Assembly: GCA_012520575.1 (NCBI GenBank)
Contig: JAAYOB010000018.1
Span: 1 to 64,000, forward strand
DNA: 64,000 bases
Reading direction: 5' to 3'
Source of the DNA: Candidatus Stramentimicrobium fermentans
Lineage (GTDB): Bacteria > Atribacterota > Phoenicimicrobiia > Phoenicimicrobiales > Stramentimicrobiaceae
Position numbers and translations under genes: made by a program. Of the stretch, positions 6,324 through 63,488 are shown piece by piece; within the stretch, counting starts at the first letter, position 1; every line of letters begins with the position of its first letter. The notes under the pieces were generated by a model, which ran no database searches, was not told the origin of the DNA, and was given only the letters and a program-made list of their open reading frames with translations.

Positions 6324-6611
6324 ATGAAAAAGAACAAAGAAAAGGCAGGTGCCTATATCAGAGTGAGCGGTATGGTGCAGGGAGTCGCTTATCGCCATTA
6401 TGCCCGAGAAGTTGCTGAGCAGCTTGGCATTAAGGGCTGTATTAAAAATTTGATTAATGGTGACGTAGAATTGATAGTAGAAGGTTCTCAAAAGGCGGTA
6501 AAACAGATGATTGAATGGTGCAAAGAGGGCCCTCGTTTAGCGATTGTTGAGAATATTGAGGTAGACTGGTTACCCTATTCGGGGGAATTTAACCGGTTTT
6601 ATATAAGATGA
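6324..6611 (+). CDS. acyP: Acylphosphatase
   Basis: A 95-residue acylphosphatase, the usual family size, which hydrolyses carboxyl-phosphate bonds such as acetyl or carbamoyl phosphate. The phosphate loop VQGVAYRH holds the catalytic Arg24, and the catalytic Asn is Asn42 in GCIKNLINGDVE. The C-terminal strand RFYIR is also standard. The start is ATG 6324; the ribosome site is weak (AAAGGT). It is followed by the CcdA gene, with no clear functional link. Confidence 0.92.
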   Translation: MKKNKEKAGAYIRVSGMVQGVAYRHYAREVAEQLGIKGCIKNLINGDVELIVEGSQKAVKQMIEWCKEGPRLAIVENIEVDWLPYSGEFNRFYIR

Positions 6612-53247: not shown

Positions 53248-53397
53248 ATTGCGCATAAGGGGTATAACAGGTTATCGGTTTAAATTTTTTACAGCTGAGT
53301 CACAAACTAAGATCTTTCCTCTTTTTAGTTTCAGATTATAGCCATTGGTGTATACTGTTAATTTTTAATTGTCAATTAAAAATTGTAAAAAAATTGT

Positions 53398-53426
53398 TTG
53401 ACATTCAAATTTGTTAATGGTAATAT
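53398..53426 (+). promoter_or_regulatory. Consensus promoter of the pyrimidine operon
   Basis: TTGACA (53398-53403), exactly 17 bases, then TAATAT (53421-53426). Transcription would start near 53433, giving a 345-base leader containing a PyrR-type element and a terminator. Confidence 0.7.
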
Positions 53427-53447
53427 TTTTTTGAAAAATATCTTTAA

Positions 53448-53479
53448 TTTAGTCCAGAGAGGCTAGAAAGGCAACTAAA
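53448..53479 (+). promoter_or_regulatory. PyrR-binding RNA element (pyrimidine attenuator)
   Basis: AGTCCAGAGAGGCT (53451-53464) matches the conserved 5' side of PyrR-binding loops (A-R-U-C-C-N-G-N-G-A-G-G-Y-U). Outer arms TTTAGT and ACTAAA and an inner G-C-T/G-G-C stem with an AGAAA loop close a hairpin. When UMP-loaded PyrR holds it, the downstream terminator can form. It lies about 15 bases after the predicted transcription start and before carbamate kinase and pyrB. I could not fold the competing antiterminator by eye. Confidence 0.7.
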
Positions 53480-53547
53480 AGTTTTGAATACTTTTGCTAA
53501 CATCTTGCTATACCTGAGCATAAAAATAGAAAATGAGTTAAATGGAG

Positions 53548-53578
53548 ATCTTCCCCGTTTTTCGGGGGAGATTTTTTT
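53548..53578 (+). terminator. Attenuator terminator ahead of arcC-pyrB
   Basis: Arms ATCTTCCCCG and CGGGGGAGAT pair (one G-T wobble) around a short T-loop, followed by TTTTTT. It is 200 bases before the first gene, the classic place for PyrR attenuation. Confidence 0.85.
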
Positions 53579-53610
53579 ATATCTGAATAATAACTTAAAG
53601 GATGAGGAAA

Positions 53611-53748
53611 ATGATTATTGATAAATTTTATGAGGAGTTTTATAGAGCCCGGCTTATGTAGAGTTTTATTTTCTTACAAGTTGTTGCCGGATATTTATTG
53701 TTTTTTTGCTTATCTCTATTAAAGGGTTTATGGATATATTTAAGATAG
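53611..53748 (+). pseudogene. Small membrane ORF interrupted by an amber codon
   Basis: ATG 53611 follows AGGATGAGGA and reads 16 codons (MIIDKFYEEFYRARLM) to TAG at 53659. The same frame then stays open for 28 codons rich in hydrophobic residues (FLQVVAGYLLFFCLSLLKGLW) to a TAG at 53746. With the amber removed it would be a 45-residue single-helix protein. It may be a decayed gene, or the first part a leader peptide. No family recognised. Confidence 0.35.
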
Positions 53749-53779
53749 TTAAATAAAAAGTAAGGAGAATAAACAAAAA

Positions 53780-54748
53780 ATGGCCAATACCATATTAATC
53801 GCGCTGGGTGGCAATGCTATCAAACAAGCAGATGAAAAAGGTACTACAGAAGAACAATTCAAAAACTGTCGGGAGACAACAGGGCATATTGCAAATATCA
53901 TTCAATATCTTGCTCCGGAAGACCGTTTAATTATTACACACGGCAATGGTCCACAAGTGGGTAATCTTATGGTTCAGCAGAAAGCCGCCCAGAATATAGT
54001 GCCGGCACACCCAATGGATGTAGTAGGTGCCATGACTCAGGGGCAAATAGGCTATATGCTGCAACAGACATTGATGAATCATTTAAATGAAAAGAATATA
54101 AAAAAACCGGTCTGTGTTTTATTGAACCAGGTGTTGGTAGACAGCAATGATCCGGAATTTATAGGAGAAAATGCCTCTAAGCCGGTTGGTAATTTCCTAA
54201 CAAAAGAAGAGGTCCAGGAATTAAAAATTAAGCACCCCGAATATATTGTTAAAAAAGTAAAACCCAATGACGAGCGCTGTTGGAGAAGGGTAGTCCCTTC
54301 TCCTGACCCTATTGCCAATTTGGATGGAGAGGTAATTAATAAATTAGTTGATGCCGGTGTTGTTGTAATTACCTCCGGTGGAGGAGGGATACCGGTATTG
54401 GAGAATGGAAAGGGACAATTAAAAGGGATAGAAGCGGTTATTGACAAAGATTTGGCCGGAGAAAGGTTGGCTAAGATTGTGGGAGCAAATATTATGTTTG
54501 TACTTACCGATGTAGAAAAAGCCAAGATTAATTACGGTAAAGCTGATGAACAAGATTTAGGGAAAATAAGCTATGATGTAGCGAAAAAGTATTATGATGA
54601 AGGTCAATTCTTAGCGGGGAGTATGGGTCCTAAAGTGAAAGCCTGCCTAAGATTCCTGGAAAATGGCGGAGAGAAAGCCATTATATCCTCTTTAGATAAA
54701 GTGGTAGAAGCTTATCGTGGTGAAACGGGTACTATTATTGCGAAATAG
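53780..54748 (+). CDS. arcC: Carbamate kinase
   Basis: 322 residues of the amino-acid kinase fold. It interconverts carbamate plus ATP with carbamoyl phosphate. Signatures are ALGGNAIKQ, ITHGNGPQVGNL, VVPSPDP, ITSGGGGIPV, VIDKDLAGERLA and GSMGPKVKACLRF. AAGGAG precedes the ATG. It lies 50 bases upstream of pyrB and downstream of a PyrR attenuator. This context suggests it supplies carbamoyl phosphate for pyrimidines rather than making ATP from arginine; no arginine deiminase gene is present. Confidence 0.95.
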   Translation: MANTILIALGGNAIKQADEKGTTEEQFKNCRETTGHIANIIQYLAPEDRLIITHGNGPQVGNLMVQQKAAQNIVPAHPMDVVGAMTQGQIGYMLQQTLMNHLNEKNIKKPVCVLLNQVLVDSNDPEFIGENASKPVGNFLTKEEVQELKIKHPEYIVKKVKPNDERCWRRVVPSPDPIANLDGEVINKLVDAGVVVITSGGGGIPVLENGKGQLKGIEAVIDKDLAGERLAKIVGANIMFVLTDVEKAKINYGKADEQDLGKISYDVAKKYYDEGQFLAGSMGPKVKACLRFLENGGEKAIISSLDKVVEAYRGETGTIIAK

Positions 54749-54798: not shown

Positions 54799-55722
54799 AT
54801 GTTACGGGGAAAAGACATTTTAAGCATGGTCCAGTTTTCCAAGCAAGAGCTTAACCTCATTATGAATACCGCAGCCAGTTATGAGCGCAGAGTTAAGAAC
54901 AATGATTATATTGACGATATGGATGGGCAAGTCGTCGCTTGCCTCTTTTTTGAACCAAGCACCAGAACACGTCTTTCTTTTGAATCGGCTGCTAACAGAT
55001 TAGATGCCAGGGTAATTAATGTGATTGGAGCAGACAGTTCTTCTACCGCTAAAGGAGAAAGCTTAGAGGATACTATTAGAGTAGTAGATGGTTATATTGA
55101 TGTTATTGTAATACGCCATTCTATAATCGGCTCTGCTCAAATCGCTGCCGATAATGCTGTCCATCCGGTTATCAATGCGGGTGACGGAAGTAATCAACAT
55201 CCTACTCAATCCCTCGTTGATATCTATACAATTCGTAAAGAAAAAGGCACCTTAAACGGACACACTGTTACCTTTTTAGGAGATTTAAAATATGGCAGAA
55301 CCGTCCACTCCCTAGGCTATTTCATGACCCTTTACGGTAATAAGATGATATTTGTTTCACCTAAAGCCTTATGTATGCCTGAAGAATTGACCGCTGATTT
55401 CCGCAGTCGTGGTGCAGATATAGAAGAGACTGAAAATTTAGAAGAAGCCCTTGCTAAAAGTGACATTGTTTATGTTACCAGGATACAAAAAGAAAGATTT
55501 GCTGACTCGGAGGAATATAATAGACTGAAAGGTAGTTATATTATAGACCGGAATACCATTGCCAGAGCCAAAAAAGGAATTACCGTTCTCCATCCGTTGC
55601 CAAGGGTTGATGAGATAGCCACCGATGTAGATGACTATGAGGGTGCTGCCTATTTCAGACAGGCCAATAATGGCATGTATGTTCGTATGGCCTTGCTTTC
55701 TTTAGTCAGTGGTAGTGTGTAA
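54799..55722 (+). CDS. pyrB: Aspartate carbamoyltransferase catalytic subunit
   Basis: 307 residues. It condenses carbamoyl phosphate with aspartate, the committed step of UMP synthesis. The carbamoyl-phosphate loop is FFEPSTRTRLSFE, then DGSNQHPTQSLVD, FLGDLKYGRTVHSL and HPLPRVDEI. The combination of DLKYGRTVHSL and HPLPR-x-DEI identifies PyrB and excludes ornithine carbamoyltransferase. AAAGGAG precedes the ATG. No pyrI or pyrC follows; instead a broken pyrD remnant lies just downstream. Confidence 0.95.
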   Translation: MLRGKDILSMVQFSKQELNLIMNTAASYERRVKNNDYIDDMDGQVVACLFFEPSTRTRLSFESAANRLDARVINVIGADSSSTAKGESLEDTIRVVDGYIDVIVIRHSIIGSAQIAADNAVHPVINAGDGSNQHPTQSLVDIYTIRKEKGTLNGHTVTFLGDLKYGRTVHSLGYFMTLYGNKMIFVSPKALCMPEELTADFRSRGADIEETENLEEALAKSDIVYVTRIQKERFADSEEYNRLKGSYIIDRNTIARAKKGITVLHPLPRVDEIATDVDDYEGAAYFRQANNGMYVRMALLSLVSGSV

Positions 55723-55752
55723 TCGTAGAAAATTAAATTTAAACAAGATTAA

Positions 55753-55956
55753 CTATCAGGCTTTTAATTATTCGTATGGTTTGGGAAGTTAGGAAAGTAG
55801 TTAATGTTCCTATAATTAACACAGACGGCATAATATGTGTAGAAGATGCTTTGGAAATATTTTGGCTGGTAAACGCTATTCAGACAGGAAGCCAGTTTTA
55901 ATAATCCTATGGTTACATATTAAATAGCAGAGGACATTAAAAAAATATTTAGATAA
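55753..55956 (+). pseudogene. pyrD: Remnant of pyrD (dihydroorotate dehydrogenase) 3' end
   Basis: In one frame from 55770 the sequence reads IRMVWEVRKVVNVPIINTDG, then IICVEDALEIFWLVNAIQTGSQF and a stop. A second frame then reads NNPMVTY-stop-IAEDIKK. These follow the C-terminal part of PyrD: R-M-V-x-x-V, V-P-I-I-x-x-x-G-I, E-D-A-L-E, A-x-Q-x-G-T/S-x-F, N-P-x-V. LSG at 55753 matches the segment just before, with a deletion. Frameshifts and stops make it dead. It sits 30 bases after pyrB, where a pyr operon gene would be. Confidence 0.7.
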
Positions 55957-56120
55957 AAAATTATATATCCTTAATCAAGGATACTGTTGGCATTGTCTAA
56001 GTATTTCAAAATAAAAGAACACCATGCCTCTCACTATTTTAATATAAATACATAGTTACCAATTTTTAAAGTTTTTACATAATTAAATTGAATACCTAAA
56101 CTTATAAGGAGGAGCAGCCT

Positions 56121-56987
56121 GTGAGTTTACAGATGATTATCAATGCCATTCTGTTAGGAGGATTGTATGCTTTGATGGGAATAGGGTTTTCTTTGCAATG
56201 GGGTATTAGCGGCATCATCAATCTTTCCTATGGGGCTATGGTAGTGCTGGGCTCGTATATATCTTTAATCATTTTTGATGTATTTAAAATTGACCCGTTT
56301 ATTAGCATGTTGTTTTCCGGCTTTTTATTATTTCTGATAGGTGCATTTGCCTATAAATTCATAATCCAGCCCTCTATTAAAGGTGGCATTGTTTTTACTC
56401 TTATTATTACCTTTGCACTCAGACTGATAGTAGAAAACTTAATACTCTATATTTGGTCTGCAGACTATCGAACTATTAGGATTAGTTATGCAGGGCGTAA
56501 TTTCCAATTTTTAAATTCATTTGTTCCACTTACCAAGTTTATTACCTTTCTAATAGCAGGAATCTTAATTTACTTTACGCACTTATTTATGATGAATACC
56601 AAAATTGGCAAAGGAATTCAGGCAGTTTCCTTAGACAAAATAGGTGCATTGGCAGTTGGGGTAGATGATAAAAAAATGTATCTGATAAATTTTGCTGTCG
56701 GAACCGCTCTTGCCGGTATTACCGGGTCACTATGGGCAACTGTCTATAGTTTTTCTCCACATGTAATTGATGTTATTATTGGCCGAGTCTTTATTATTGC
56801 CATTTTGGGTGGTTTGGGAAATATTTGGGGTGCAGCCGCGGGAGGAATGCTTTTGGGATTTGTTGAAACCTGCGGGGCTACCTTTCTTGGGGCCCATTGG
56901 CAAGAAGCAATCGGTCTGGCAATGATGGTCTTAATTCTTCTGTTCAGACCACACGGCTTAATGGGCAAAAAATTTTTTGGGCAATAA
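56121..56987 (+). CDS. livH: Branched-chain amino-acid-type ABC permease LivH
   Basis: 288 residues with eight or so helices. The start QMIINAILLGGLYALMGIG and the conserved GLGNIWGAAAGGMLLGFVE near the C-terminus are typical of LivH. GTG 56121 follows AAGGAGGAG by 6 bases. It opens a five-gene operon livH-livM-livG-livF plus binding protein. Members of this class import branched-chain amino acids, urea or other small amides; the substrate here is unknown. Confidence 0.93.
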   Translation: MSLQMIINAILLGGLYALMGIGFSLQWGISGIINLSYGAMVVLGSYISLIIFDVFKIDPFISMLFSGFLLFLIGAFAYKFIIQPSIKGGIVFTLIITFALRLIVENLILYIWSADYRTIRISYAGRNFQFLNSFVPLTKFITFLIAGILIYFTHLFMMNTKIGKGIQAVSLDKIGALAVGVDDKKMYLINFAVGTALAGITGSLWATVYSFSPHVIDVIIGRVFIIAILGGLGNIWGAAAGGMLLGFVETCGATFLGAHWQEAIGLAMMVLILLFRPHGLMGKKFFGQ

Positions 56988-57042
56988 GTAAATGTTTGAT
57001 TATAGCTTTAGGTTTATCTGTTTAGAGAGGAAGTGAGAATAG

Positions 57043-58029
57043 GTGTTGGTACAAAATGATAAGAGATGTACTATGAACATAGTATGGATTGTCGTTGCTA
57101 TTATTATTTTTACAATTTTGCCTAATTTTATTTCCGGTTATTATATCCGCATACTTACCGCAATTTTCATGTATGCTGTTTTATCTCAGTGTATTAATCT
57201 GATGTCCGGTTACATGGGATACCTGCCCTTTGGACATGTGATGTTTTTTGGTATAGGTGCCTATATGACTGCTATCTTGATGAGAGGGAATCTGCCCTTT
57301 ATAGTCGCTATGTTGCTAGCTTCTCTATCCGCGATAGTGGTGAGCATTATTTTGGGATTCCCTGTACTTAGACTAAGAGGGCACTATTTTGCAATTGCTA
57401 CTATCGGTATGAATGGAGCACTTATGACAGTGGTTCAGAATATCGATATTACGGGAGGGGCAAGAGGCACTACCTTTCCCATAATTATGCTTCCGCCGGG
57501 TCAGGTTTATAGCTATTTTTATTATGCCTTTTTAGCTCTGATGATTATAACCACCTTTGCCATCTATTTCATTGTTAATTCCAGATTTGGATTTGCCATT
57601 AGAAGTATTAAAGCAAATGAAGATGCAGCCAACTCTATGGGGATAAATACTACCAATACCAAAGTAGTAACCTGGGCAATCGCCGCTCTATTTACCAGTA
57701 TCGCCGGAGGATTGTATGGTTACTGGATGTCCTTTATAGCACCCGATGAAGTATTTGACCTGATGTTTATTACTAATTCCATAATTATGATGCTTATTGG
57801 AGGAGCGGGAACAATTTTAGGGCCTGTCATCGGAGCTTTTATTGTTGAAACGGTATCAGAATTTGCTTGGAGTGGTTTCATGGAATACCATTTAGCAGTG
57901 CTGGGTATAATAACTATCATCATAGTCTTTTTTGTTCCGGGAGGTGTTATCGGCACTATTACTGAGAAAATTAGAGATAGAAAAATAGCTGCCAGTATAA
58001 AGTCGGAGGTAGCAGCTAATGATCGATAA
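57043..58029 (+). CDS. livM: Branched-chain amino-acid-type ABC permease LivM
   Basis: 328 residues, about ten helices. The motifs NLMSGYMGYLPFGHVMFFGIGAY, GFPVLRLRGHYFAIAT and the coupling segment GFAIRSIKANEDAANSMGI define LivM. A GTG start at 57043 is the best guess; ATG 57073 would shorten the polar N-terminus. It overlaps livG by 11 bases. Confidence 0.92.
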   Translation: MLVQNDKRCTMNIVWIVVAIIIFTILPNFISGYYIRILTAIFMYAVLSQCINLMSGYMGYLPFGHVMFFGIGAYMTAILMRGNLPFIVAMLLASLSAIVVSIILGFPVLRLRGHYFAIATIGMNGALMTVVQNIDITGGARGTTFPIIMLPPGQVYSYFYYAFLALMIITTFAIYFIVNSRFGFAIRSIKANEDAANSMGINTTNTKVVTWAIAALFTSIAGGLYGYWMSFIAPDEVFDLMFITNSIIMMLIGGAGTILGPVIGAFIVETVSEFAWSGFMEYHLAVLGIITIIIVFFVPGGVIGTITEKIRDRKIAASIKSEVAANDR

Positions 58030-58792
58030 TAATAATGTCATATTGGATGTCAGAGCTATAAGTAGACATTTTGGTGCCTTAAAAGCTGTTGACCGGGTAT
58101 CTTTCCAGGTAAGGAAGGGGGAGATTATCGGTTTGATTGGTCCCAATGGTGCCGGGAAAACCACCATAACTAATCTGGTTACCGGTGATTTAAAAAAGAA
58201 TGCGGGTGAAGTCCATTATAAGGGAACCGATGTTAGCAGTATGCAGCCATTTCAGATTGCCCGTATTGGTTTAACCAGAACCTATCAGATAGTAAAACCA
58301 TTACAGGGCATGACTGTGGAAGAGAATGTTTTAGTTGGCTCCCTTTATGGTCGCGGTAATAGAATAAATGATTTAAGTAATGCACGGAAAACAGTCCATG
58401 ATGTAATGGAATTAGTCGGATTGTACAAAAAGAAAGATTTCATGGTAAGTGATGTTACTCTTCCTGATTTAAAGCGTATGGAGTTTGCTCGAGTTTTAGC
58501 GATGGATCCGGAGGTGGTTTTCTTAGATGAAGTTATGGCTGGGCTTAACCCTTCTGAAGTGGAAGAATCGATGGAATTGGTGAAGAAAGTTAGAGAGGAT
58601 AGACAATTAACCATAGTCTATATTGAACACATTATGAAAGCAGTAATGGGAATTTCTGATCGAATTATTGTGTTGCACCATGGCAAAAAGATATGTGAAG
58701 GCTCTCCTCAAGAAGTTCGTGATAACCCTGCGGTTATAGAGGCTTATCTAGGTAAAAAGTATGCCAAGGAGGTTATGAAAGCAAATGAATAG
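58019..58792 (+). CDS. livG: Branched-chain amino-acid-type ABC ATPase LivG
   Basis: 257 residues. Walker A is GPNGAGKTT, Q-loop RTYQIVKPL, and Walker B VVFLDEVMAGL. The signature position reads VTLPDLKRMEFARVL instead of the usual LSYGxQR, so the LSGGQ motif is replaced by LPDLK, as seen in some LivG-like subgroups. The C-terminal GxPxEVRDNPAVIEAYLG is standard. GGAGG precedes the ATG; it overlaps livF by 8 bases. Confidence 0.92.
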   Translation: MIDNNNVILDVRAISRHFGALKAVDRVSFQVRKGEIIGLIGPNGAGKTTITNLVTGDLKKNAGEVHYKGTDVSSMQPFQIARIGLTRTYQIVKPLQGMTVEENVLVGSLYGRGNRINDLSNARKTVHDVMELVGLYKKKDFMVSDVTLPDLKRMEFARVLAMDPEVVFLDEVMAGLNPSEVEESMELVKKVREDRQLTIVYIEHIMKAVMGISDRIIVLHHGKKICEGSPQEVRDNPAVIEAYLGKKYAKEVMKANE

Positions 58793-59513
58793 CAACACTT
58801 TGTTAAAAACAATAGGTATTAATGCTGGTTATGGGGCTATCCAGGTATTATGGGATGTGAGTTTTGAACTGAATAAGAAAGAAATAGTTTGCTTTATTGG
58901 GACCAACGGTGCCGGTAAAACCACTTTTCTAAATAATATTGTGGGGATCTTAAAACCTTTTTGTGGTCAGATAATATACCAGAATCAGGATGTCACCCAG
59001 CTCAATTCTCCGGAGAGAATAAAAATGGGTATTGGTTATGCACCGGAAGGAAGACACCTTTTCCTCGGTTTAACTGTTGAAGATAATCTACTGATGGGTG
59101 CTTTTCCACGGAAAGTTAATCACAGAACTCTCAAAGAAGATCTTGACTTTATATATAATTTATTCAAACCCCTTAAGGGATACCGAAAAAAATATGCCGG
59201 TAATCTTTCCGGAGGAGAACAACAGATGTGTGCTATTGGTAGGGCACTTATGTCTAAACCGATTCTACTGATTATCGATGAATTGTCTTTGGGATTAGCC
59301 CCGGTAGTAGTAGATGATTTAATTGAAACTATTATTAGATTGAGGGACGAAGAGGGGATAACTATTTTGATAGTCGAGCAGGATGTGCAGGTAGCCCTGG
59401 ATATCGCCGATCGAGGTTATGTGTTTGAAAACGGCTCTATAGCGATGGAAGGATATTCTGAAAATTTGGCTAAAAATAAGCATATCAAGACAGCATATCT
59501 CGGTATTGCTTAA
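58785..59513 (+). CDS. livF: Branched-chain amino-acid-type ABC ATPase LivF
   Basis: 242 residues. Walker A is GTNGAGKTT, the LivF hallmark YAPEGRHLF follows, then signature LSGGEQQMCAIGRAL and Walker B LLIIDELSLGLAP, and the C-terminal YLG. It forms the ATPase heterodimer with LivG. AAGGAGG lies before the ATG inside the end of livG. Confidence 0.95.
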   Translation: MNSNTLLKTIGINAGYGAIQVLWDVSFELNKKEIVCFIGTNGAGKTTFLNNIVGILKPFCGQIIYQNQDVTQLNSPERIKMGIGYAPEGRHLFLGLTVEDNLLMGAFPRKVNHRTLKEDLDFIYNLFKPLKGYRKKYAGNLSGGEQQMCAIGRALMSKPILLIIDELSLGLAPVVVDDLIETIIRLRDEEGITILIVEQDVQVALDIADRGYVFENGSIAMEGYSENLAKNKHIKTAYLGIA

Positions 59514-59622
59514 TATATGAATCAATTCGATTAATAGGGAGGTGATTGAATATTAAAGGTCTTATTTTTCAATAATAGTACCAAGTAAAAAGATAAAGAA
59601 TAAACGGAGGAAAGTAAAAATA

Positions 59623-60852
59623 ATGAAAAAAGCCACGGTAGTATTCTTAGTAAGCATGTTCTTGTTAGTTTCAGCTGTAGCTGTATTTGCACAGCAGTTT
59701 GATGATATAATTAAAATTGGAGCAGCAGTCTCCCTTACCGGTAAAACAGCATATGAAGGTCAAATGGTTAAGCGGGGATATGAGGTATGGGAAAAATGGG
59801 TTAATGAACATGGTGGAATTAAGGCTGATGGTAAAACCTATGGTGTAGAAGTTCTTTATTATGATGATGAGAGTGACCCGGTACGTTCGGCAAGACTAAC
59901 GGAAAGATTGATAACCGAAGATAACGTTAATTTTTTAGCCGGACCTTATTCTAGTTCGATCACTTTTGCTACAACAGCCATCGGTGAAAAATATGGGGTT
60001 ATAACTATTGCTTCCACTGCCAACGCCAGAAATATCTATGAACGAGGGTATAAAAATGTCTTTTCAGTTCTTCCGCCGGCACCATTACTTATGGCTCCAA
60101 TTGCTTATATGATGGATGAAGTGCTGGAACCCAGACCCAAGACGGTAGCTATTGTTGTAGCTAATGATTTATTTCCACTGGATGTTGCTACCGGATTTAA
60201 TGATATCTGCACAGAACTTGGGTTTGACGTTGTGATGTTCGAAAAATACCCTCCTGGTTCTACAGACCTATCTGCCTTATTAACAAAGGTCAAAGCTCTA
60301 GATGCGGATATTTTAGCTGGCGGAGGATACACCGCTGATGCCTTGATGATTTTAAGGCAGTGCAAGGAATTAGATTACACTCCCAAAATGTTCGCCAGTA
60401 TAGTGGGGGTATTTGTACCAGGCTTTTTAAAGGAAATAGGTGCTGATGGTAATTACGCAGTAGAGGGTGAATGGTGGGTACCGGCAATGAAAACCGAGGA
60501 CCACATATTTGGGACAACTGAAAATTACTTACAAGCTTGTATAGATATGTTTGGAGATGATTTTATAGCTAACTATCAGACAGCTGCCGCTAGTGCAACC
60601 GTTAGCATCATTCAAATGGCTATTGAAAAAGCAGGAACTATTGAAACTGAACAAGTAAGAGATGCATTAAAAAGCTTTGATGTAATCGAGCTTGCTTGTT
60701 TCTCACCGGTTGAGTTTGCTGAAAATGGAGAGAATATCCAATGGGAGCACCCGGTAATCCAAATTCAAAATGAAGTAGTGAAAGTGGTATATCCATTAAG
60801 TTCGCAAGAAAGTGCACCACTTTATCCGGCTCCAACCTGGAAAGAAAGATAA
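59623..60852 (+). CDS. ABC transporter substrate-binding protein (LivK-like)
   Basis: 409 residues with signal peptide 1-24 (LVSAVAVFAQQ). The mature protein is a periplasmic-binding type 1 fold: IKIGAAVSLTGKTAYEGQM, EVLYYDDESDPVRSARLTERLI, GPYSSS and DILAGGGYTADAL. It delivers substrate to LivHM. It has no lipobox cysteine, so it is free in the periplasm if an outer membrane exists. CGGAGG precedes the ATG. The 110-base gap after livF has no terminator that I can see. The adjacent dead amidohydrolase hints at a nitrogenous ring or amide substrate. Confidence 0.92.
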   Translation: MKKATVVFLVSMFLLVSAVAVFAQQFDDIIKIGAAVSLTGKTAYEGQMVKRGYEVWEKWVNEHGGIKADGKTYGVEVLYYDDESDPVRSARLTERLITEDNVNFLAGPYSSSITFATTAIGEKYGVITIASTANARNIYERGYKNVFSVLPPAPLLMAPIAYMMDEVLEPRPKTVAIVVANDLFPLDVATGFNDICTELGFDVVMFEKYPPGSTDLSALLTKVKALDADILAGGGYTADALMILRQCKELDYTPKMFASIVGVFVPGFLKEIGADGNYAVEGEWWVPAMKTEDHIFGTTENYLQACIDMFGDDFIANYQTAAASATVSIIQMAIEKAGTIETEQVRDALKSFDVIELACFSPVEFAENGENIQWEHPVIQIQNEVVKVVYPLSSQESAPLYPAPTWKER

Positions 60853-62642: not shown

Positions 62643-63488
62643 ATGAGAAAAATTGATGCTATAGAAATTTCAGACAAAGTGAAGAGCCTGTTTTTGGAAG
62701 CAAATTTTAATATAGGGGAGGATGTTCTGGAGGCATTAGAAAAAGCCTTAAAAGCAGAAACATCTAAAGTGGGACAAGACGCTTTAAAGATGATTATTGA
62801 AAATAACCGCTTAGCCTCTTCTGAAGAGTTGGCAATATGCCAGGACACCGGACTGGCAGTACTGTTTGTAGAGTTAGGTCAGGAGGTCTGTGTAGTTAAT
62901 GGCGACTTTACTGAAGCAATTAATGAAGGTGTTAAAGCAGCTTATAAGGATGGCTATTTAAGAAAATCGGTAGTAGATGATCCGGTATTTGATAGGAAGA
63001 ATACTACCACCAACACCCCAGCCTTTATCTACACCGACATTGTTCCTGGTGACAAGATTAAGATAACAGCCCTACCTAAAGGTTTTGGCAGTGAGAATAT
63101 GAGTGCTTTAGCAATGCTCACCGCAGCTCATGGCGCTAAAGGAATAGTTGATTTCATCGTCGATACTGTTAGAAAAGCAGGTCCTAACCCTTGTCCTCCT
63201 ACCGTAGTGGGAGTTGGTATTGGCGGAACAGCCGACAAAGCTATGGTAATAGCCAAAAAGGCAACAGCCCGTTCTATTGGTGAGTATAATGCTAATCCTA
63301 AGTATGCTCAGATGGAAAAGGAAGCCCTAGAAAGAATTAATAAATTGGGTATAGGTCCAGCTGGTTTAGGCGGTAATACTACATCTTTAGCAGTGCATAT
63401 TAATTATCTGCCTACCCACATTGCCGGTATGCCGGTTGCGGTTAATGTCTGTTGTCATGCTGCACGTCATGCCTATGGAGAAATTTAA
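62643..63488 (+). CDS. Class I fumarase / L-tartrate dehydratase alpha subunit
   Basis: 281 residues, the separate N-terminal subunit of the [4Fe-4S] hydro-lyases. Cluster cysteines are expected in AICQDTG, GPNPCPP and VCCHAARH. GFGSENMSAL and GVGIGGTADKA are family blocks. It hydrates fumarate to malate, or dehydrates tartrate, together with the beta subunit encoded next. GGAGG lies before ATG 62643, which starts 15 bases after the end of the pseudogene. Sequence alone does not separate fumarase from tartrate dehydratase. Confidence 0.93.
   Translation: MRKIDAIEISDKVKSLFLEANFNIGEDVLEALEKALKAETSKVGQDALKMIIENNRLASSEELAICQDTGLAVLFVELGQEVCVVNGDFTEAINEGVKAAYKDGYLRKSVVDDPVFDRKNTTTNTPAFIYTDIVPGDKIKITALPKGFGSENMSALAMLTAAHGAKGIVDFIVDTVRKAGPNPCPPTVVGVGIGGTADKAMVIAKKATARSIGEYNANPKYAQMEKEALERINKLGIGPAGLGGNTTSLAVHINYLPTHIAGMPVAVNVCCHAARHAYGEI

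Follow-up and report, generated by a model that had tools for sequence, protein, structure and literature searches.

The DNA analyzed here is a stretch of 64,000 nucleotides from the draft genome of Candidatus Stramentimicrobium fermentans (contig JAAYOB010000018.1, positions 1 to 64,000), referred to as the window. Within it, arcC, which encodes carbamate kinase, is the first intact gene behind a leader with an intrinsic terminator and is followed by pyrB (Table 1). The best solved match of the arcC product was 1e19, named carbamate kinase, a chain of the Pyrococcus furiosus enzyme. All ATCase motifs sought in pyrB, including KYGRTVHS, TRIQKER and HPLPRVDEI, were intact, and the best solved match of its product was 1ml4, an aspartate transcarbamoylase. 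Strong purifying selection was found on arcC (dN/dS 0.04-0.09 compared with sister species), pyrB, the transporter (0.05-0.10 within the genus), the aspartase gene and the dihydroorotase-like gene, as judged from pairwise estimates with dS near saturation. The dihydroorotase-like gene scored 290 against a cut-off of 279 for dihydroorotase, and allantoinase-type models gave higher raw scores that stayed below their cut-off; the identity of this putative ring-closing enzyme as dihydroorotase is uncertain.

Table 1. Features of the arcC leader and of the genes behind it (window positions unless stated otherwise).
Feature	Position	Strand	Basis
Promoter, copied with the leader	53389..53436 (TTGACA 53398-53403, TAATAT 53421-53426)	+	90% identity to the promoter of this genome's pyrF leader
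Predicted PyrR-binding (anti-antiterminator) hairpin	53439..53473	+	RF00515; motif AGTCCAGAGAGGCT at 53451-53464
Linker with hairpin partner competing with the PyrR hairpin	53474..53540	+	Folding; 59% identity to pyrF copy
Intrinsic terminator (14 pairs, 53544-53576) and U tract	53544..53580	+	92% identity to pyrF copy
Dead pyrF 5' end carried with the leader	53611..53706	+	MIIDKFYEEFYRARLM (stop), then frameshift; alignment to pyrF
arcC, carbamate kinase	53780..54748	+	TIGR00746, 363.7 bits vs cut-off 358.25
pyrB, aspartate carbamoyltransferase	54799..55722	+	TIGR00670, 368.9 bits; ATCase motifs intact
pyrD2 remnant, C-terminal part, internal stops	55752..55997	+	tblastn with G001 pyrD2, E=1e-11 against window
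livHMGF-livK-type ABC transporter	56121..60852	+	Conserved downstream partner; same gene order in relatives
Fumarate hydratase alpha subunit	62643..63488	+	
Fumarate hydratase beta subunit, malic enzyme, aspartase, dihydroorotase-like gene	contig 63524-68345, beyond window		

The first-pass annotation of this DNA had read the region upstream of carbamate kinase as a PyrR-type attenuator made up of a consensus promoter, a sequence element inside a hairpin and a strong intrinsic terminator, and each of these features could be confirmed. The Rfam model of the PyrR leader (RF00515) matched at 53437-53581 with 59.2 bits, above the gathering score of 54 (E=1.3e-5 for the whole window), and the only other RNA match across the 64 kb was one tRNA. 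The promoter, TTGACA-17-TAATAT with an extended -10 element at 53398-53426, has no better promoter-like match in the region, but promoter-like matches taken together show no enrichment. The hairpin motif AGTCCAGAGAGGCT is a perfect fit to the Bacillus subtilis consensus ARUCCAGAGAGGYU (quoted in PMC7430163), and 12 of the 13 hairpin pairs are retained, one pair of the lower stem being lost (A-C). Among the leaders of the order that share the hairpin, 99.2% of cells at paired sites were paired and 8 had changed on both sides, compared with 2.6 in shuffles, in an alignment where an N was added manually in the bulge of short leaders to hold register and where most of the change represents a single split between two leader groups.

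The genome search for pyrR proposed in the first pass was successful (NF003549, 244.3 bits compared with 138; solved match 1non). Genome-wide, only arcC and the pyrF-pyrK-pyrD-pyrE operon carry PyrR leaders above the Rfam threshold. Given the Rfam match and the pyrR gene, the suggested control of carbamate kinase by UMP is a supported prediction. The description of the first gene as not a standard pyr gene overlooked that pyrB comes next in the operon and that CPS is missing. The second PyrR leader, the pyrR gene and the dead start of pyrF also came to light only in the present analysis.

Folding of the leader predicted a hairpin that is mutually exclusive with the PyrR hairpin: the free prefix reached -17.1 kcal/mol, compared with -16.2 kcal/mol when the PyrR hairpin was forced. 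The first pass had called for an alternative fold joining the two hairpins; in the fold predicted here the 5' strand of the terminator stays available. By constrained folding of the arcC leader, no antiterminator capturing the 5' strand of the terminator could be identified, and the pyrF leader of G003, a sister genome of the same genus used as control, was likewise negative. Since this genuine pyrF leader fails too, the folding test carries little weight. For pyrF leaders within the genus, upstream sequestration of the terminator strand had a probability of 0.06-0.44 irrespective of the PyrR hairpin, which makes the method undiscriminating. Folding runs in which pairings were forbidden may over-constrain bases, and conclusions were not built on them.

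Alignment of the two PyrR leaders of this genome showed that the arcC leader is a copy of the one at pyrF, with homology starting at 53389, just before the -35 box, and extending through the terminator into the start of pyrF. Past the terminator, the homology spans the ribosome-binding site and the first ~90 bases of pyrF, which are frameshifted here and carry a stop. When this remnant was aligned alone, it scored 75, compared with a maximum of 37 in 2000 shuffles. The promoter stretch ACATTCAAATTTG is common only to the two leader copies of this genome, so the copying probably occurred within this lineage. Because the dead pyrF start has diverged, an assembly chimera at the leader junction is unlikely. 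From 53611 to 53661 the pyrF remnant keeps the ribosome-binding site and an open frame of 16 codons, a possible source of a short leader peptide.

The two copies have drifted apart unevenly. The hairpin and terminator are identical at 72 of 78 positions (92%) and the promoter at 90%, compared with 59% for the linker, 60% for the spacer and 65 of 89 positions (73%) for the dead pyrF. Conservation is stronger in hairpin plus terminator than in the pyrF remnant (Fisher P=0.001), in a comparison where the segments were picked by the analyst and the partner pyrF is itself constrained. This uneven drift speaks for selection acting on the leader. It appears quite improbable that the leader is a passenger without regulatory function, its duplicated terminator merely lowering expression, with control lost or exercised from another site. 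The drifted linker and the lack of a convincing antiterminator in the arcC copy would fit such a passenger, but a perfect PyrR motif would not be expected in it, and the linkers of the pyrF leaders in the genus are also very dissimilar.

In relatives, an IclR-type regulator gene is followed by arcC-pyrB and mostly by pyrK2-pyrD2 and a Liv-type transporter (livHMGFK), with genes for aspartase and a dihydroorotase-like enzyme nearby. The sister species G002 has the same cob genes upstream, and the IclR gene lies between these and arcC. No PyrR leader could be detected at arcC of ten relatives, even with a permissive search. In the window, no credible match to the IclR gene or to pyrK2 was found, and only the C-terminal scrap of pyrD2. 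In a grouping analysis arcC falls with its genus (moderate support), thus the control region and not arcC has changed; on the same result, the idea that only this species gained arcC by horizontal transfer was rejected. Judged by its gene content the cluster of the relatives looks catabolic, and it is a candidate module for the fermentation of orotate or dihydroorotate with ATCase run backwards. No description of such an orotate cluster was found in the open-access literature. The order IclR-arcC-pyrB-pyrK2-pyrD2-livHMGFK was observed, for example, at L111, L118, L123 and L125, sometimes accompanied by genes for aspartase, a hydantoin-racemase-like protein and a dihydroorotase/hydantoinase.

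Model searches of the genome, which is 98% complete, identified no carA, carB, OTCase or AllG; in the searches for carA and carB, control matches were obtained in 14 of 14 control genomes. The single member of the OTCase/ATCase superfamily is the pyrB behind the arcC leader. Since carB is absent from all five genomes of the genus that were examined, its loss through an assembly gap is unlikely. Family members G007, G008 and G009 do have carB, and in G007 and the partial genome G005 pyrB is part of a canonical PyrR-pyrB-pyrI-pyrC-pyrF-K-D-E operon. HypF, a consumer of carbamoyl phosphate, is encoded in the genome, so that carbamoyl phosphate is required in any case. Roles of carbamate kinase in the arginine deiminase, agmatine and allantoin routes were rejected, because the OTCase-family partners and AllG are missing.

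The product of pyrB might instead be a pseudo-ATCase of purine catabolism, of the ureidoglycine carbamoyltransferase type proposed for Rubrobacter, paired with carbamate kinase. Carbamate kinase genes adjoining ATCase-like genes are known there (PMC4016543), and the dihydroorotase-like enzyme also scores near the allantoinase cut-off. This assignment is nevertheless very improbable, given the intact ATCase motifs and the ATCase as best solved match, the position of pyrD2-pyrK2 next to pyrB in relatives and the lack of any other ATCase in the genome.

The reaction of carbamate kinase is reversible. The presence of a PyrR leader on arcC-pyrB in a genome without CPS suggests carbamate kinase as the maker of carbamoyl phosphate and, as the operon continues with pyrB, it is likely the first enzyme of the pyrimidine pathway here. 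The explanation preferred, with moderate confidence, is that a catabolic-type operon was put under end-product control and that carbamate kinase runs forward as the source of carbamoyl phosphate for UMP. The PyrR leader, a copy of the one at the pyrF operon, probably reached its place ahead of arcC-pyrB within this species' lineage, where it would have taken over from the IclR-type regulator of the catabolic-type cluster. When UMP is plentiful, PyrR-UMP would bind the hairpin at 53439-53473 and the terminator would halt transcription; when UMP is scarce, RNA polymerase would read through into arcC-pyrB. Carbamate kinase would then form carbamoyl phosphate from ATP, ammonia and bicarbonate for use by PyrB, the ring might be closed by the nearby dihydroorotase-like enzyme and UMP would be completed by pyrK-D-E-F under the sister leader. 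In the simplest reading, a change from substrate sensing to end-product repression would match a switch from the breakdown of pyrimidine precursors to their synthesis.

The pattern of gene loss is consistent with biosynthesis. The parts lost are dispensable for it (IclR and pyrK2 from the locus, pyrD2 by decay), pyrK2-pyrD2 being redundant with pyrK-pyrD of the pyrF operon, and the parts needed for it (arcC, pyrB and the dihydroorotase-like gene) are retained. Against it counts that the genes for the transporter, malic enzyme, fumarase and aspartase were retained, with purifying selection on those tested, as do the lost pair in the lower stem of the PyrR hairpin, the failure to find a terminator-capturing antiterminator in a weak test, the ambiguous scores of the ring-closing enzyme and the case of Thermococcus kodakarensis described below.

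These retained genes would fit an operon that still runs backwards, as it seemingly does in relatives. In that case the PyrR leader would tune an operon of catabolic or dual use. Orotate, dihydroorotate or carbamoyl-aspartate taken up by the cell would lead to phosphorolysis by PyrB to aspartate and carbamoyl phosphate, from which carbamate kinase would make ATP, and aspartate would pass via fumarate and malate to pyruvate. Although the genome lacks CPS, OTCase and AllG, PyrB run backwards could supply carbamoyl phosphate. The arcC-pyrB cluster found across the order, which includes a transporter, an IclR regulator and pyrK2-pyrD2 and sometimes aspartase, points the same way, and in catabolic pairs the genes for carbamate kinase and a carbamoyltransferase are typically transcribed together (PMC6022934). 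But repression by the end product UMP suits a biosynthetic operon and not a catabolic one, and the orotate-feeding genes pyrK2 and pyrD2 have been lost here. Moreover, with no carA or carB and no second carbamoyltransferase of the OTCase superfamily, an operon running only backwards would leave the genome without de novo carbamoyl phosphate for UMP. Backward operation is considered unlikely, while deserving more weight than an inert leader. Slightly less than even confidence is given to the complete scenario, in which a catabolic orotate-fermentation operon became the first half of pyrimidine biosynthesis through a transplanted attenuator replacing a substrate-sensing regulator, with carbamate kinase as the sole source of carbamoyl phosphate.

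Whether carbamate kinase can act as the CPS of living cells has been debated since the Pyrococcus work. The present genome has neither CPS nor OTCase, and its predicted UMP-sensing leader ahead of the carbamate kinase and ATCase genes provides independent evidence for this role; the arcC-pyrB operon offers a simple system for testing it. Anabolic carbamate kinase is described in a review (PMC6022934). With the Pyrococcus furiosus-type anabolic carbamate kinase, or carbamate-kinase-like CPS, the present case shares the best solved match 1e19, the absence of CPS and the presence of ATCase, but here the enzyme is bacterial and its gene shares one operon with pyrB behind a PyrR leader. For the archaea this role is contested: in Thermococcus kodakarensis, another organism that lacks CPS, recent genetic work shows that carbamoyl phosphate comes from OTCase run backwards and not from carbamate kinase (PMC13260591).

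With known PyrR attenuators (RF00515; the pyrR, pyrP and pyrB leaders of B. subtilis) the arcC leader shares the promoter, the ARUCCAGAGAGGYU hairpin, the terminator, a genomic pyrR and pyrB in the operon. It differs in having carbamate kinase first, no carAB, a translocated leader copy with a dead pyrF start and an antiterminator that is not recognized by folding, as in the pyrF leader of G003. As in the catabolic pairs of the arginine deiminase, agmatine and allantoin routes, the kinase gene adjoins a carbamoyltransferase gene, but the genome lacks OTCase, putrescine carbamoyltransferase and AllG, the partner has ATCase motifs and a PyrR leader lies in front. No report linking PyrR to carbamate kinase was found in the open-access literature. 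The scar left behind, the dead pyrF start, makes it possible to trace how an RNA switch was transferred, and the locus draws attention to a cluster found across the order whose ATCase may work in reverse to gain ATP from orotate.

Several minor observations were made. The genome G006 (e.g. L128), rated 100% complete, has no match to carB, true carbamate kinase or dihydroorotase; its sole carbamoyltransferase is OTCase-like, it carries PyrR leaders on uracil permease, and it is a probable pyrimidine auxotroph. Tandem PyrR leaders, two hairpin-terminator units in series, precede a uracil-permease-like gene at L042/L046 (G001), L024/L043 (G006) and L028/L037 (G007). At 6357-6611 the window contains a HypF-N/acylphosphatase-like stretch with one in-frame TGA.
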